Of a stretch of 64,000 bases of DNA, positions 10,906 through 37,949 are shown one piece after another. The stretch's first letter is position 1, and every line of letters begins with the position of its first letter. The stretch comes from Mactromeris polynyma. Its lineage: Eukaryota; Mollusca; Bivalvia; Venerida; Mactridae. The notes beneath the pieces were generated by a model. It was not told the DNA's origin. It saw only the letters and a list, made by a program, of their open reading frames with translations, and did no database searches. The position numbers and the translations under genes are program-made. The stretch covers positions 36,894,619-36,958,618 of the forward strand of contig JASFXZ010000001.1 in assembly GCA_032209605.1 (NCBI GenBank), written 5' to 3'.

Positions 10906-11007
10906 CTGGATCATAGGGACATTCATTGGCATTTGGCTGACGTGGTTGAGAAACAGTCGCGATACGTCCTCTATCTTGGCCTGAGCGCTGCCAGGTAGGG
11001 GTATCAG
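10906..11007 (-). CDS. unc-13: unc-13 exon 25 (MUN-C2C linker)
   Basis: Residues 956-989, 34 codons, phase 0 at both ends: LIPLPGSAQAKIEDVSRLFL then NHVSQMPMNVPMIQ. This segment differs in length and sequence among UNC13 proteins; A-K-I-E-D-x-x-R-L-F resembles invertebrate versions. The acceptor is CTTTTTACAG and the donor GTTGTA is weak. It could be skipped without a frame change. Confidence 0.88.
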
Positions 11008-14000
11008 CTGTAAAAAGTAGCCTTGTATGTGTAAGATATCAAATATATAATCATACCACAACTTCAAGGAGGCTTCATTCATAATAATCAACTAATTATG
11101 CTGTGGCCTACCATAATTACTTCTGTATTAATTATGTCCGATCTAAATCTACCATAAATTGCTTATAGTTTTACTTTGTGTTACTTTTATTTAGCCCATT
11201 GCTCTGTCTGGTTCTTATCTAAGCAAGGTCTTGATACAAGTGAAACATTTGTTTTTATGTTTGGGTCCATTTTGTAAGCAAAATTTCGCATTATAGATTA
11301 GCTACCTGGTCCATGTGCAAATAGTGAAAATAACACTTAATAATAAAACTGAATTAACAGCAACTAAAATAGCCCAGAATGTGAGTCCAAAATTAATGCA
11401 CCTTCTATATTTAATGATGCCCTTTGACGAAAATATCTTAAATTGAGACATTAAGCATCAATGAGTTCAAAGATCAATTCAGTTCTGTATCAATAGAGTT
11501 AAAAAGAACAAGATTGTATGTTATACACGCTATTAAAATTAACTTGATTGCCAAACAGAGCAGTAATCAGTTCTTGGTAAAAACGGTAACAACTGATTGA
11601 GCATGATAAAGTGACAGATCAGGACATATTTGATACAGAAATAATCAAGCACAAACTGGTAGGCAACACTATCGAAGAAAGGGTAAAATATACACAGGAT
11701 TATCAATGAAACTTGACACAAAAAGAACTAAACGTGGAACAGTCCAAACATTCTACCAGGGGTTGAACAATCCATGGTATAAGATGCTTGGCACAGCCAA
11801 AGTGAAAATCCATGGATCCCTAAGCTAGAATTTTTAATCAACCTGTATCACTGTCAACTATTTTACCAATGGTAGGCTTTAACAATTCTTCAGCCTAGTT
11901 CTTTTGTGTCAAATTTCTAAGGAAAGCACAATTTTGTATGAAGAAACTTCGAGGCAAGCCATATTCTGGCGGATCACAAAAACTGTAAGCCAGGTAACCG
12001 TGACAATGTCATGAGACTCTCTTGTCCAACTTACTGCTGCAAATAATAGGATCTTGGGCAAATACATGTCATCGTGGACTCGCCTAGCGGCAAGAGTTAG
12101 AAACTGTAAGAGAAACACACCTGATATTGTTGTTGTTGGAACAACACTAATACGCATTAAGTCCAATGATAAGAGTTATCATGAATACAAATTAGCATCA
12201 ATTTACAGAGATATTCACATTTATATTACCTGTGAAAATAATGTGCACTTTTTTGCATTTAATGAATAACAAAGACATTATTATTGGTTCATTAAAATCC
12301 AATTTCATCCACTATGAGAAAGATGTACATGTATGTCGAACAGTAAAATAGTTAACACCTAATCTGCTTTTTTGAACTACCACACAATTTCTGCATAAAA
12401 TGTCTACTACCTAGAGTGATGTGGAAAACAGATTATCTTGTAAGATTAGTGGACAAGTAAGACGGTATTTGTATTTACCAAACTGTCTCAAGTATATTGT
12501 TTGCAATTTCAAAAAAAAATGGCAACAAGTGATAACTACTTTAGACGCAAAATGTTAGTGACAATTATCAAATGACTACATGTTAACAGGGATTAGTAAA
12601 ATCTGTTTGATATCAACATGGTTCATACAGAATATCTGGGACACAATTCAAGGACGTTTCAAGGAGTATTCAAATTTTCAAGGACGTCTTCAGGGCTCTC
12701 ACTAGAATGTCAGAACAGGGAGAAGTTTTTGTGATTTTAGGGAGAAATTACAGCATTTTCACCCTGTTTAAGGAATTTTTATGTATGAAAACTTCTCCCT
12801 CAGTTCAAATTAGGGAGAAGTCAGATAATTTTGGGAGACTATTTCTCCCATTTCTCCCTCTAGTGAGAGCCCTGGTCTTTTTATCACCAATTCCCTAAAA
12901 TTTAACAGAATTAACCAGTTTTGGTAGAATAATGGCCCTCCATGTAGATCATGATAAAAATGTGCTACCAAGACATATGAGGATTGATAAGTGACCATAA
13001 AGCTTTTGTTCTAAATTCATTTTCTTTTTTCCTCGACTTTTATAACTTTATTCTTTCCACATAAAGCAAAGATACGATAGAACATGGATTTTTTCAGGTT
13101 TTATTTAGGGTTTGAAATATATTTAAGGACTTCTCATGGCCTGTATGAACCCTGCATCAATACATGACATTCCCGTCCCATCATCACACAATATACAATG
13201 GAAATGTTCAATCCTTTACCCATGCTCAACAAAAATACATTTTATTTTGGGGAGGGTGGGGTAATTTAATAAGGGAAGCATCAGCTGCAAGCTAGATATA
13301 ATAATTCTAAAAATAGTAACGTAGAACTTGTTGATTACACTCAAAAGTGGGAAGAAACGAAATATCGGCACTTAGCGTTTGACATCAGGAGTAAAACTCA
13401 AAATATTTATTTCTTTTTCCTCATTATTTACATGTGATAAACATTTTAATATCGTCTGCTGAATGCTAACTAACCAACTTAACAGATTGAAATGGACTGG
13501 TCCAAGTTGTAATATGGATGAGTTCATTGCGCAAATTTAGTGAGTTCAAGGCTGAACTGTCACAGACAAATTGAATAGCCTTATAATACTTAACAAATGA
13601 TACTGTACCTACAAATATAACCCTGAATTGACCAATCAAGAAGACAATAAAATGTCATGATTACTAAAAACCAAATTCATGTATTCAAGCTGAAAGCTCT
13701 ATGTAATACATGGGTGGGGCTATTTTACAGCATACAATTGAGCCATAGTGTGTAAAAATTGTCTTCAGATCTATAAGACTAGTGTAGGCAACAGCAAATC
13801 ACTCCAATCCTTCAGATATCTAATGGAGTACATAGTTAAACATTGTGTGCAAGAATAGAGTTCCCAGTGAAAATGACTTAAGAAAGTATTTGACATTTTG
13901 GAGAAATGAAGGGAGTTTGCCAAAACTTACCAAAATGAACAAAATTTAATGTCAGTGGAATTTCAATGAAATTCAGTGAAATTTCAGTGTGATCTTAGTG

Positions 14001-18585: not shown

Positions 18586-18836
18586 CTGCCATCCAATAGA
18601 TCCATTAGGGGTCGCAACACCATGTCACTCTCCTGCTGTATACTGGTTCTCTGACTTGGCTGGGACAGCGACACCTGGCCAGCTCCCTTCACTTTGGACA
18701 GTAGTGTGCCGAGTTCAAGCATACTCTGCTGAATTTGTGGCTCTAAAGATTTGGCAAAGATGTTGCTTAATTCGTCAAGAACACTATTTAATTTCTGTTG
18801 TAGTTCTTTTAGAATATTGGCTGCTTCTGTGTCCAG
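18586..18836 (-). CDS. unc-13: unc-13 exon 22 (MUN)
   Basis: Residues 830-912 plus two bases. It begins LDTEAANILKELQQKLNSVL-D-E-L-S and ends D-M-V-L-R-P-L-M-D-L-L-D-G. The donor is GTAATG. The acceptor ATATTTCAG lies only about 12 bases from the start of a 2-kb, 32-bp satellite, so the upstream part of the 3' splice region is repeat sequence. Confidence 0.96.
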
Positions 18837-18847
18837 CTGAAATATAC

Positions 18848-20898
18848 AATACAGATCTCTATGTGAGCACTTCCACAACAATACAGATCTCTATGTGAGC
18901 ACTTCCACAACAATACAGATCTCTATGTGTGCACTTCCACAACAATACAGATCTCTATGTGAGCACTTCCACAACAATACAGATCTCTATGTGAGCACTT
19001 CCACAACAATACAGATGTCTATGTGAGCACTTCCACAACAATACAGATGTCTATGTGAGCACTTCCACAACAATACAGATGTCTATGTGAGCACTTCCAC
19101 AACAATACAGATCTCTAGGTGAGCACTTCCACAACAATACAGATCTCTATGTGAGCACTTCCACAACAATACAGATGTCTATGTGAGCACTTCCTCAACA
19201 ATACAGATGTCTATGTGAGCACTTCCACAACAATACACATCTCTATGTGAGCACTTCCACAACAATACACATCTCTATGTGAGCACTTCCACAACAATAC
19301 ACATCTCTATGTGAGCACTTCCACAACAATACAGATGTCTATGTGAGCACTTCCACAACAATACAGATGTCTATGTGTGCACTTCCACAACAATACAGAT
19401 GTCTATGTGAGCACTTCCACAACAATACACATCTCTATGTGAGCACTTCCACAACAATACAGATGTCTATGTGTGCACTTCCACAACAATACACATCTCT
19501 ATGTGAGCACTTCCACAACAATACACATCTCTATGTGAGCACTTCCACAACAATACAGATGTCTATGTGAGCACTTCCACAACAATACAGATCTCTATGT
19601 GAGCACTTCCACAACAATACAGATGTCTATGTGTGCACTTCAACAACAATACAGATGTCTATGTGAGCACTTCCACAACAATACAGATCTCAATGTGAGC
19701 ACTTCCACAACAATACAGATCTCTATGTGAGCACTTCCACAACAATACAGATGTCTATGTGTGCACTTCCACAACAATACACATCTCTATGTGAGCACTT
19801 CCTCAACAATACAGATGTCTATGTGAGCACTTCCACAACAACACACATCTCTATGTGAGCACTTCCTCAACAATACAGATGTCTATGTGAGCACTTCCAC
19901 AACAATACAGATCTCTATGTGAGCACTTCCACAACAATACAGATCTCTATGTGAGCACTTCCACAACAATACAGATGTCTATGTGAGCACTTCCTCAACA
20001 ATACAGATCTCTATGTGAGCACTTCCTCAACAATACAGATGTCTATGTGAGCACTTCCACAACAATACAGATCTCTATGTGAGCACTTCCACAACAATAC
20101 AGATCTCTATGTGAGCACTTCCACAACAATACAGATGTCTATGTGAGCACTTCCTCAACAATACACATCTCTATGTGAGCACTTCCTCAACAATACAGAT
20201 CTGTCTATGTGAGCACTTCCACAACAATACAGATGTCTATGTGAGCACTTCCACAACAATACAGATCTCTATGTGAGCACTTCCACAACAATACAGATGT
20301 CTATGTGAGCACTTCCTCAACAATACAGATCTCTATGTGAGCACTTCCACAACAATACAGATGTCTATGTGAGCACTTCCACAACAATACAGATGTCTAT
20401 GTGTGCACTTCCACAACAATACAGATGTCTATGTGAGCACTTCCACAACAATACAGATGTCTATGTGAGCACTTCCACAACAATACAGATGTCTATGTGA
20501 GCACTTCCACAACAATACAGATGTCTATGTGAGCACTTCCACAACAATACAGATGTCTATGTGAGCACTTCCACAACAATACAGATGTCTATGTGAGCAC
20601 TTCCACAACAATACAGATGTCTATGTGAGCACTTCCACAACAATACAGATGTCTATGTGTGCACTTCCACAACAATACAGATCTCTATGTGAGCACTTCC
20701 ACAACAATACAGATCTCTATGTGAGCACTTCCACAACAATACAGATCTCTATGTGAGCACTTCCACAACAATACAGATGTCTATGTGAGCACTTCCTCAA
20801 CAATACAGATGTCTATGTGAGCACTTCCACAACAATACAGATCTCTATGTGAGCACTTCCACAACAATACACATCTCTATGTGAGCACTTCCACAACA
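18848..20898. repeat. 32-bp satellite, about 64 units
   Basis: Units join CAATACAGATCTCTATGTGA and GCACTTCCACAA. Variable positions give three main forms (CAGATCTCT, CAGATGTCT, CACATCTCT), plus CCTCAA for CCACAA and GTGTGC for GTGAGC. The variants recur in blocks, a sign of unequal exchange. The array starts 12 bases beyond the exon 22 acceptor. Confidence 0.98.
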
Positions 20899-21115
20899 AA
20901 ACCTGTATTGGTGACCAAAAACCATTTGTACATTTTTACATTTTCTAGCAGATATATCTTTCTACTTTCATTCAATAACAAAATCATTACAATCAGACGT
21001 CTATTTTTCTTTTTATAGCGATTCCAATATTAAGAACAAAATGTGAAAGTAAGCAACAAAAGGATGGCATCAACTCGGAAATGCAATACTCATATGTACA
21101 TTAATTCTTAAAAAA
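20898..21115. repeat. dispersed repeat family B, copy 1
   Basis: AAACCTGTATTGGTGACC..CAGATATATCTTTCTA..ATTACAATCAGACGTCT..CATATGTACATTAA aligns along about 200 bp with 55366-55566. It begins exactly where the 32-bp satellite stops. Confidence 0.8.
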
Positions 21116-32880: not shown

Positions 32881-32986
32881 TTAAAAGCCAACAATAAATG
32901 AAAACCCAACAATGGTCAGATATAAAATTAATAATAAAAGCATAGAAAGCGTAGGTATCATGCATACATACTAATTTTTGCTTTAC

Positions 32987-33049
32987 CCCAGTGGTATTTG
33001 GCAGCTTGACCGTACCTCCAGATGCTTCAGCTAAGAAATGGAATAGATT
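32987..33049 (-). CDS. unc-13: unc-13 exon 11 (MUN)
   Basis: Residues 378-398, phase 0 at both ends: NLFHFLAEASGGTVKLPNTT then G. NLFH[FY]L is conserved at the start of MUN; the A-S-G-G-T-V stretch corresponds to a variable loop. Acceptor CTGCTTTCAG, donor GTAAAG. It is followed by intron 11 (5.2 kb), whose first 900 bp contain a 29-bp satellite. Confidence 0.95.
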
Positions 33050-34108: not shown

Positions 34109-34246
<138 letters not shown>

Positions 34247-34764
34247 TCATGAAACAGACTTAAATCACAATGCAAAGAGACACGTTTTCTACATAATATG
34301 AAAGTCTAGTACTGAGTATGAACAAATGCTGACTTGCAAGACTGTAGCTTTAACTTTCCATCCTAGTAGAAATACAGGATGAAAATTTCGGTAACAATGA
34401 ATAGATGCATGGTACTTAAACCATTGACAGACAAATTTCTGTGATGAAAGATGTTTTTTAGTATGACATTTTTACCTATATCAAGTATCAAATTTATTGA
34501 GCATCCATACAAGTGAAAAATACATTTATATATAATTAACAATATATACATGGTAGTATACAGAGACAAATATAATTACTTCAAGAATGCAAGATTAAGG
34601 GTTGATTTAAAATTTTAGTTGAGTATACCATTATTGTGTACACAATGTTAATTGGTCAATATTTTGAAAAACATGATTTCATTGCTCAATTACCTCACTG
34701 TTTATTCAAAGCCATTCTTGAGTAAATAAAAAACAGACTATACCTTACAAAGTAATTTATCCAT

Positions 34765-35380
34765 TGTTTGATATCAACATAAATGTTTGATATCTCCATA
34801 AATGTTTGATATCTACACAAGTGTTTGATATCTACATAAATGTTTGATATCTACACAAATGTTTGATATCTACATAAATGTTTGATATCTATATAAATGT
34901 TGGATATCTACATAAATATTTGATATCTACAAAAATGTTTGATATCTACACAAATGTTTGATATCTACACAAATGTTTGATATCTACACAAATGTTTGAT
35001 ATCTACACAAATGTTTGATATCTACACAAATGTTTGATATCTACACAAATGTTTGATATCTACACAAATGTTTGATATCTACACAAATGTTTGATATCTA
35101 CACAAATGTTTGATATCTACACAAATGTTTGATATCTACACAAATGTTTGATATCTACACAAATGTTTGATATCTACACAAATGTTTGATATCTACACAA
35201 ATGTTTGATATCTACACAAATGTTTGATATTTACACAAATGTTTGATATCTACACAAATGTTTGATATCTACACAAATGTTTGATATCTACACAAACATT
35301 GATATCTACACAAATGTTTGATATCTACACAAAAATTTGATATGTACACAAATATTTGATATCTATGCAAATGTTTGAAA
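34765..35380. repeat. 19-bp minisatellite, about 32 units
   Basis: The unit is ATGTTTGATATCTACACAA. The core is nearly perfect; the left edge carries ATAAA variants and the right edge is degenerate. It sits between alternative exon 9A (about 195 bp away) and exon 10. Confidence 0.98.
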
Positions 35381-35575
35381 ATGGAAGAAAAGACAAAAAC
35401 AACACTGTATTACTGACAATTATTCTACAAAACCAGTTATGATTAGGAATAAAATGCAGGTCAATTAAAATAAAATTAGCACTATGAGAACTTTAACAGC
35501 AGACTTCTAATGAGCAAACAAAACATAATTATATATTGCATATAAAATTCATATACGGTACAGGTAATACCCCAC

Positions 35576-35703
35576 CTAGATTATACCAAACTGTCATCTC
35601 GCCACAAAGTTGCGCAATCTCAATAATCTTTTGACCAAGGAACTCGTCGGGTTCAGGTGTGAAAGCTTTACGTATTCGAGACTTTAGATCGTAATCTTCG
35701 TCC
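35576..35703 (-). CDS. unc-13: unc-13 exon 9A (alternative C2B Ca2+ loop 3)
   Basis: A second 128-nt exon with the same phase, 683 bp downstream of 9B in the transcript. It encodes [20 protein letters not shown], then [20 protein letters not shown], then NL. Twenty-seven of 42 residues match 9B. Changes cluster in the loop-3 helix: K309A, L310F, R312P and S314P, so TRES becomes TPEP. The last loop aspartate becomes Glu (D316E), while D297 and D299 are kept. The acceptor is GTTTTTTAAAG; the donor GTGGGG is weak. The surrounding introns of 9A and 9B do not look alike, so the duplication is old and the coding has been kept by selection. I infer a mutually exclusive alternative exon. Confidence 0.9.
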
Positions 35704-36386
35704 CTTTAAAAAACAAATACACCAAACAAAAATATACAGAACTAAACGAAATAAAACAGACATCACACAGTTAAACAAACTCACCTGATCAGTCAAGTGC
35801 CTTCAAAGTGACTTTTATCACACAGAAGACAAAACCAAAGAAAATAAGTTTCACTTGAATGAAAAATAAAATACTAAAAACATAAATCATAGCAGGGAAA
35901 GGTATACTCAAAGTATTCTGCATAGATATGATAAGAATTCATAGAAAACATATTCATAATAATATACAAAGTCTTAAAACTTAATTTATATAATGTTTTA
36001 AATATTTGGGAGCTATTTAATGTGATTTCAGGGAAATAGTAAAATTTTTAAAAATTGGATAACATTTACATTATGCAGAATACTTTAAGCCTTTCATACC
36101 ACAGACTTCAGTAGAGAACTAGTAACAAGAAAATACATAATGGAGTGTTTGAAGCAATTTTAGCGAATTCCAAATTTAGTCTCTTGAGTAACTAAGTCTG
36201 TAGTATGAGCATATGAAATACAACAATAACAACGGAGGCTACTTCAAAACGTGGGTTTGTTGCAAAACTGTTTCTCTACCTGAACTGAATTAAAATACTT
36301 TTGCATCAATCCCTCGATAAATGAAACAATATTTAAGAGGTTTTGACACAAGCATGCTCAGTAATCAAGCAATGTTATAACCTTAC

Positions 36387-36514
36387 CTAAATTATACCAA
36401 ACATCCATTTCACCGCTCAATGTTCGTACTTCTATGATAGTTTGACCGAGAAAATCATCAGATTCTCGAGTCAATTTTTGGCGTAACTTTGATTTTAAAT
36501 CATTATCTTCATCC
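36387..36514 (-). CDS. unc-13: unc-13 exon 9B (C2B Ca2+ loop 3, canonical version)
   Basis: 128 nt encoding [20 protein letters not shown], then [20 protein letters not shown], then NL, with one extra base at each end. Acceptor CATCCAG, strong donor GTAAGG. It carries Ca2+ ligands D297 and D299 and the last loop-3 aspartate, D316, just before FLG. D297 and D299 are 52 and 54 residues after D245, matching D757 and D759 of Munc13-1. Structural work on the Munc13-1 C2B domain found an unusual amphipathic helix in this loop that contributes to phosphoinositide binding; here it is basic (K303, K305, R307, K309, R312). This version looks like the UNC13 consensus. The next copy, exon 9A, has the same length and phase. 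Confidence 0.95.
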
Positions 36515-36585
36515 CTGGATGTAGCATGCATCAGAGGAAACATAGTTCATAATTGAACACAAAACTAACTTGTAAGATAACTTTT

Positions 36586-36663
36586 GATTGGTTGAAAAAT
36601 ATCACATGACATATAAAGATGTAATGAATCTGATTTCATTGGTTAAAAAAAATATCACATGAC
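36586..36663. repeat. direct repeat pair upstream of exon 9B
   Basis: ATTGGTTGAAAAATATCACA-TGAC and ATTGGTTAAAAAAAATATCA-CATGAC lie 53 bp apart, 72 to 150 bp upstream of the exon 9B acceptor in the transcript. Confidence 0.75.
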
Positions 36664-36916
36664 TTGCAAAACATGTACAATAATTTGATTAGGCAAGGCA
36701 AATTGAACAACTTAAAGTAAGTATCTTTTAGTTTAGATGGATGAATTTAAAAATGAAATCCCTAAAATCAACCTTTATAGAAAGAAAAATATTGATTCAT
36801 TTTCTAAATGTTACTTGTCTAGATTATTATCAGAGCTGCATAAGACTTTCATAAGTCAATAAAACAGGGCAAGTTTTCATAAATGGATGAAAATTTATGA
36901 CGAAGCGTTGACTCAC

Positions 36917-36958
36917 CAAACTCGCACTTTAATCCTGTCGGATGAATTGTGGCACTCA
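36917..36958 (-). CDS. unc-13: unc-13 exon 8 (C2B, 42-nt exon)
   Basis: A small exon encoding E-C-H-N-S-S-D-R-I-K-V-R-V plus two bases (TG) of a Trp codon. Acceptor ATTTCAG, donor GTGAGT. The trailing TG is completed by the first G of either copy of exon 9. If both copies were skipped, TG would join AG of exon 10 and make an in-frame TGA. Confidence 0.95.
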
Positions 36959-37949
36959 CTGAAATATAACACAATTATCTGGTAAAACAAATCTAACAGA
37001 ATGTACGTTTATATCCATTAAACATTTATGGATAGTTTATCCTAAATTTTGTAATAGATGGCAGTAAGGTCTTTTTCTTAATATTTTAATTGGGTGAAAT
37101 TGAACTTTATGTCCCTGATGCTACACTTGTAGGCCCTAAAATGTCTAAGACGATGGATGGGCAGCATGACGGGTTGATTGTCAAGCAAGTAATCTATCAT
37201 GGTCAGGATATACTGACAAGAATTGATGTCTGACTGAACCTCAATTAATCCAAAATTTAAGTTTTTTGTACCCCTTATGAAAACCCAATATTAGCGAATT
37301 CCAGATTTCATCAAAAGCTAATCAAGAGGGAGGTAGTCAGTAGATTGGGTGGGTGTCTGTCTGCACTTTTCTCACTGTTCATTGGTTTAAGCATCACCAA
37401 ATCATTATGCTTTCTGGAAAAGGGCAACTGATCATGTTCCTTGAAATTACATAGTTTCATTTATCTATTATATCATACATTATCACATTATAAAGATAAC
37501 TATCATACTGCCACTGGGATGTAATATCTAAAATGGAAAGTACGTATTTGTCATCAGACATACATAACATTTACTACTCCTTTAGCGTCTGGGGCTTTAA
37601 TTCTAATACCTTCATAATCATCCTCTGCTTTATTGCTCTACTACAACTGATATTTTCTTTTTTAGACAGGCGAATGGATATGCGTCCATGGCCAGTGGAC
37701 AAGCTGCTTGCAATGACTAGTTTATGTCCGAATATTGTGACAGTAAACATGTGTAAATAAAGATTATGCAACTGTGTACTGAGTAGAGAGCTCTCACTGT
37801 CACAGTAACCAGTGGTGTGACAATGTTAATTGGTAGAAAAACAAAATAAATCAAACATAAAGTGACTACTGTTATAGCGAATGCAAAATTATTTTCTACG
37901 GAGTATTTTATTTTTGTTGGACAGACTTGTGTATGATCCCTATACTTAC

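Follow-up and report, generated by a model that had tools for sequence, protein, structure and literature searches.

Homologous mutually exclusive exons are already known as a kind, and the nearest case in the pathway considered here is exon 5 of vertebrate SNAP-25. It is a tandem-duplicated exon of an exocytosis gene, and one of its two copies is obligatorily chosen; passages of PMC2581893 give 39 residues for exons 5a and 5b, nine of which differ. The clam unc-13 exon pair described below is likewise a tandem duplication in an exocytosis gene, with a probable choice of one copy, but belongs to another gene and lineage. The SNAP-25 swap spans palmitoylated cysteines and not a C2 domain, and it is known from RNA and mouse genetics, whereas the proposed clam switch rests on sequence and annotation.

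The homologous exon clusters of Dscam, Mhc, unc-32, and other genes share with the clam pair the three features by which WebScipio searches for such exons, i.e., comparable length, conservation of splice sites and reading phase, and sequence homology (passages of PMC3228551). Unlike the clam pair, many of these clusters come with RNA evidence and some with docking-selector RNA structures, as described in part of PMC6071210.

Isoforms of the same gene family are also on record, and in UNC-13/Munc13, as here, the isoform choice alters regulatory domains. In the worm, UNC-13L is a long and UNC-13S a short isoform (passages of PMC11991699), and the alternatively spliced loop of Munc13-1 lies in MUN (passages of PMC5344669); neither of them, unlike the clam pair, swaps C2B residues. 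No description of a C2B exon switch in unc-13 was found in the literature searched, an absence which is provisional, as most subscription papers lay outside the search. Nothing on the C2B exon site was found in passages of PMC12084633, PMC6025963, and PMC10839115. The isoforms of relatives that carry the alternative exon are already present in public annotation, where they stand without comment.

The unc-13 locus and its duplicated C2B exon

The window, i.e., the whole stretch of 64,000 nucleotides that was analysed, comes from a bivalve close to Mactra; its minus strand holds the larger, C-terminal portion of an unc-13 gene. Its unc-13 exons, from 61281 down to 6307, correspond to residues 509-1752 of the Mactra antiquata protein (1752 residues) and run through C1, C2B, MUN, and C2C, following the domain layout of rat Munc13-1. 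Two exons of the C2B region, named here 9B and 9A, are copies of each other, and they lie between neighbours common to both forms:

36917..36958, minus strand: exon before the pair, common to both forms, 42 nt, ECHNSSDRIKVRVW; placed by the spliced model against Munc13-1, matches Mactra P0001
36387..36514, minus strand: exon 9B, the canonical version, 128 nt; peptide identical in 144 of 214 copies (205 proteins, rank-biased lists)
35704..36386, minus strand: intron between 9B and 9A, 683 nt, with ordinary GT-AG ends
35576..35703, minus strand: exon 9A, the alternative version, 128 nt; conserved in Mactra, Mercenaria, and Dreissena
34118..34233, minus strand: exon after the pair, common to both forms, 116 nt, matches Mactra P0001

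The intron before 9B has 402 nt and the intron after 9A has 1342 nt. Each exon has 42 whole codons, preceded by the third base of a codon whose first two lie in the exon before and followed by the first base of another split codon. The acceptors read ...ACATCCAG/GGATGA for 9B and ...TTTTTTAAAG/GGACGA for 9A, and the donors TTAG/GTAAGG and CTAG/GTGGGG, respectively. An earlier note on this DNA had described two 128-nt exons of the same phases with 27 of 42 residues identical, and the splice sites, phases, and peptides bear this description out.

At the nucleotide level 9A and 9B agree at 81 of 128 positions; the 47 differences are distributed over the three codon positions as 14, 7, and 26. The NG86 method gave a dN of 0.26 and no finite value of dS, which is consistent with saturation. 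Since 27 of 42 residues are shared and only 11 of these 27 are written with the same codon, 9A and 9B are, judging by the sequences, an old exon pair held by selection on the protein. Among the three introns around the pair no similarity was found at E 0.01.

The assembly (792,805,942 bases in 299 contigs) was searched for further copies of the exon. At E 0.001 or better the 9B peptide had two matches in the whole genome, 100% and 64% identical, both inside the window, and no third copy was found in this search. The 9A peptide alone matched the solved Munc13-1 C2B at E 1.2e-11, and a 44-residue 9A query matched three clam proteins at 91-98%; a chance resemblance of 9A is excluded by these two sequence comparisons.

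Some other features of the same minus-strand gene were observed. Its MUN region has two alternative in-frame exons, dissimilar to each other, at 12035-12103 (69 nt, FLTLAARRVHDDMYLPKILLFAA) and 10906-11007 (102 nt, LIPLPGSAQAKIEDVSRLFLNHVSQMPMNVPMIQ). An exon like the first is used in Mactra P0001, and an exon like the second in Mercenaria, Dreissena, and Mya P0012; these alternatives are probably the loop which passages of PMC5344669 call alternatively spliced. In the stretch 32972-33049 an exon ends at 32987, and a second possible donor at 32972 would add VKQKL, at the place of which Mercenaria P0002 reads VKPKL. Another tandem array, with a 32-nt unit in 64 copies (18846-20899), stops some 10 nt short of the acceptor belonging to the exon at 18836.

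Exon choice and candidate signals

If 9B and 9A are alternatives, how does the transcript read with each combination of them? Either exon alone, joined to the neighbours, lets the frame read through and leaves C2B intact. With both exons together a premature stop follows after GTKITI, and with neither of them the stop comes at once, so nonsense-mediated decay would be expected to remove these wrong choices. The pair shows three features of mutually exclusive exons, i.e., equal length, compatible GT-AG sites and phase, and homology. Inclusion of one exon only is the reading on which the frame logic and the annotated proteins of relatives agree; seven predicted proteins hold both copies and are considered below. 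The likely mutually exclusive switch proposed in the earlier note is supported by this frame logic and by the relatives' annotated proteins, which are predictions and in Mya include both choices. That 9B and 9A are a real tandem-duplicated, mutually exclusive splice switch is, on these sequence grounds, very probable. Exclusion by steric hindrance or by two spliceosomes seems unlikely, because the middle intron measures 683 nt and the splice sites of both exons are of the ordinary GT-AG type.

Signals that may govern the choice were sought in the introns around the pair, and the motif, hairpin, and TGTGT leads given here come from a single species and were chosen after looking:

36525..36530, minus strand: TGCATG in the weak 9B acceptor, a candidate RBFOX-type site; the only TGCATG in the three introns
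35907..36089, minus strand: hairpin-forming inverted repeat in the middle intron, arms 35907-35924 and 36072-36089, 17 of 18 matching
35570..35575, minus strand: 9A donor GTGGGG, the lowest-scoring of 21 donors by a small matrix built on sites of the same gene

RBFOX proteins bind TGCATG and tend to repress from upstream. Shuffling placed a TGCATG in the last 30 nt in 34 of 2000 trials, and among the 20 introns of the model only the one preceding 9B has GCATG in its last 40 nt. Scored by a small matrix of this gene's sites, the 9B acceptor is the second lowest of 20 and the 9A acceptor is ordinary. The 9A donor, weakest of the gene, together with a weak 9B acceptor that carries TGCATG, suggests that 9B would be the default exon and that an RBFOX-type factor at TGCATG could mask it and shift the choice to 9A.

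The inverted repeat of the middle intron (17 of 18) was equalled in 3 of 200 shuffles, and the folding of this intron has a z value of -2.55, with none of 20 shuffles as stable. Eight inverted-repeat pairs lie in the region 34200-37000, and seven of them, with lengths of 14-19 nt (81-93%), extend across 9A, 9B, or both. No docking-selector set was recognised among these eight pairs in the single species. The intron after 9A contains a 19-nt tandem array of 32 copies (34765-35378), which supplies most of the 25 TGTGT words on the transcribed strand of this intron; CELF-type factors might bind such words.

Alternative copies in relatives and the origin of the pair

The 44-residue 9A stretch, taken from the spliced model of 1118 residues, identified three proteins among six candidates: Mactra antiquata (98%), Mercenaria mercenaria isoform X6 (91%), and Dreissena polymorpha isoform X4 (91%). 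In all three annotated proteins 9A sits between the same neighbours as 9B elsewhere; the length of clam proteins with 9A is 1752-1842 residues. Frame-breaking changes of 9A in close relatives, looked for at the protein level, were not seen, and Mactra keeps 41 of the 42 residues of the window exon. Mactra is represented by a plain gene model and the other two by numbered isoforms, all of these protein models being predictions. Mya has both kinds: X3 and X14 carry a diverged alternative (DLRSKVRKTFTREGDD...AQLCGETTVWHNL), X8 and X10 carry 9B, and all four are listed on contigs of equal size.

The wider survey combined the best 120 of 3641 hits of a C2B-wide protein search, the best 120 of 3577 hits of a search with the Mytilus alternative exon, and the 9A matches. 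It comprised 205 proteins with 214 exon copies found by pattern, and 144 of these copies are letter-identical to 9B, a proportion which comes from rank-biased lists and is no census. As the lists stop at a given rank and the protein database, clustered at 90% identity, may conceal isoforms, a form missing from the survey tells us little. Mytilus trossulus X5 and Solemya have one common alternative form with five differences from 9B, and Magallana X5 has an alternative form with eight. M. californianus X11 and X12 have 9B, the M. coruscus model has 9B followed by an alternative copy, and Solemya and Magallana show only the alternative form among the matches listed. The peptides of Lingula, a trematode, Clonorchis, Daphnia, and Lepeophtheirus lie 1-3 residues from 9B and may be either alternative copies or single exons. 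A further alternative-like exon occurs in the JGI protein P0126, which apparently derives from spliced RNA, as its 1161 residues lie on a contig of 3955 bases.

Two exon copies were found by pattern in nine of the 205 proteins. Bulinus P0004 and Acipenser P0005 were dropped as gene-model or assembly artefacts in which long unc-13 stretches including C2B are repeated. Microcebus P0122, whose second C2B stretch is broken, was set aside on the same ground. Adjacent copies are present in seven proteins: three of Macrostomum and one each of Mya, Mytilus coruscus, Dimorphilus, and Didymodactylos. Flatworm, annelid, and rotifer gene models are all represented among these two-copy proteins. At all seven joins exon-end residues are missing (Mytilus, Dimorphilus) or extra residues are present (the others), and for this reason we take these proteins as cases of gene-finder bridging of frame-incompatible exons; they speak for the presence of both copies in the DNA and not for their joint use.

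Did these pairs arise once or several times? In a tree of 23 exon peptides the heterodont alternatives, including that of Mya, stand together at 0.96, and they join the Mytilus/Solemya form, Magallana, Macrostomum copy 2, and Lamellibrachia at 0.72-0.76. Macrostomum copy 1 lies next to this alternative group, Dimorphilus copy 2 and rotifer copy 2 lie elsewhere, and upstream and downstream copies are not cleanly split. Judged by such a tree, an exon of 42 residues is too short to decide between one origin and several.

We give an even chance to the view that the pairs of bivalves, flatworm, annelid, and rotifer are separate duplications of the same exon and not one early spiralian event. The second copies of Dimorphilus and the rotifer, both outside the bivalve alternative group, and the place of Macrostomum copy 1 beside that group speak for it, as do the two rotifer copies, each of which differs from 9B by six residues. 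It has to be set against this that the same exon is duplicated in every lineage and that the first copy lies nearer to 9B than the second does in six of the seven two-copy proteins, i.e., in all where the distances are unequal; the bivalve alternatives also group with Macrostomum copy 2 and Lamellibrachia, if only at the modest values given above. The alternative history is an early spiralian C2B exon switch, canonical upstream and alternative downstream, which bivalves, annelids, flatworms, and rotifers would have retained as a device for two priming factors, with the heterodont copy then diverging fast and losing the charge equivalent to R769 (see below). We regard this history as possible but rather doubtful, the more so as upstream and downstream copies are not set apart in the tree.

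C2B residues and the possible effect of the probable switch

The C2B domain of Munc13/UNC-13 controls vesicle priming and release probability. Passages of PMC11991699 name D834, D840, D886, D888, and D905 as the Ca2+-ligand aspartates of worm UNC-13 C2B. By spacing, the last three correspond to exon positions 1, 3, and 20, and the exon thus holds three of the five ligand positions. On the same spacing the 9B form has five ligand Asp, and the 9A form of the window has four Asp and a Glu at the fifth position, which may still bind. The first two of the exon ligands (D297 and D299 in the numbering of the earlier note) are the same in 9A and 9B, as had been stated there. The change of the last loop Asp to Glu, also claimed there, holds for the window, Mactra, and Dreissena and not for Mercenaria and Mya, where Asp is retained, so that Glu is found in three of five heterodont alternative forms.

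From the aligned rat chain and the residues named in passages of PMC8648301 we infer that rat R769 is exon position 13. According to these passages, R769 lies in a C2B Ca2+-binding loop and touches lipid in both modelled modes, and R769E strongly lowers the readily releasable pool and impairs priming in mouse neurons. 9B has Lys at position 13; 9A has Ala there in the window, Mactra, Mercenaria, and Dreissena, and the Mya alternative has Thr. Since the Mytilus/Solemya and Magallana alternative forms have Lys at this position, the loss of charge at the R769 equivalent is, in the sequences compared, a heterodont trait and not general to alternative copies. Both losses of basic residues that had been ascribed to 9A (K to A and R to P) are present, but a Lys gained at position 12 (Q12K), which partly offsets K13A, had been missed; net loop 3 charge falls by only one, from +1 in 9B to 0 in 9A, and the net charge of the whole exon stays at -4. 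The basic stretch of 9A is still amphipathic, with an Eisenberg moment of 0.53 vs 0.30 for 9B, and the two prolines come after it.

The FLGQ and VWYNL motifs are the same in both exons, and the PF00168 profile scores the 9B form at 90 bits and the 9A form at 82.2 bits (cut-off 22). The 9A protein would still fold as a C2 domain, with the first four of the Ca2+-ligand aspartates in place. Its lack of the R769-equivalent basic residue, with Glu as the fifth ligand in some species, could alter the grip of C1-C2B on the plasma membrane and the Ca2+ dependence, and cells using 9A would then have a differently tuned priming factor. We guess that 9A gives weaker Ca2+-independent membrane binding. The direction of the effect is not fixed by the published mutants, as far as passages of the two papers go: worm ligand mutants release more (PMC11991699), and mouse R769E primes less (PMC8648301). 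That the switch retunes C2B in a way cells use appears likely, with some help from the published mutants at the equivalent positions.

Other readings of the pair give the 9A peptide less weight. Were 9A mainly a poison exon, its inclusion beside 9B would shift the frame and lower the unc-13 level, and the peptide would matter little. Such a role would suit the stop after GTKITI and the weak 9A donor; it would need neither a 42-residue C2B peptide, nor equal length and phase, nor 41 of 42 residues identical with Mactra, and the annotated proteins have 9A in the place of 9B, all of which makes it improbable. The weakness of this donor, lowest of the gene, would also be expected of a dead, never-used copy or an assembly artefact, which we consider practically ruled out by the open frame, the intact splice sites, and the conservation in other genera, and equally by the 47 of 128 nucleotides that differ, the flanking introns dissimilar at E 0.01, and the presence of two copies only in the genome search.

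A stronger rival, though still an unlikely one, is that the exons are true alternatives whose proteins are near-equal in function, the switch being neutral or only timing expression. The retained ligand positions 1 and 3, FLGQ, and VWYNL are in keeping with this, as are the small fall of the C2 score and the equal net charge of the whole exons. However, 15 of the 42 residues of 9A depart from a peptide that recurs unchanged in 144 of 214 copies (in rank-biased lists), and its specific differences are common to the window and three other genera. The explanation which we prefer as a whole, and hold to be probable, is that of an old tandem-duplicated pair, used one exon at a time, which would retune C2B.

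In the papers cited C2B has been probed with engineered mutants; a natural swap would offer ready-made variants over three of the five ligand positions and the R769 position. With such a switch, unc-13 would join SNAP-25 among the exocytosis genes that a duplicated exon tunes, and would do so in animals whose ganglia are simple and well mapped.
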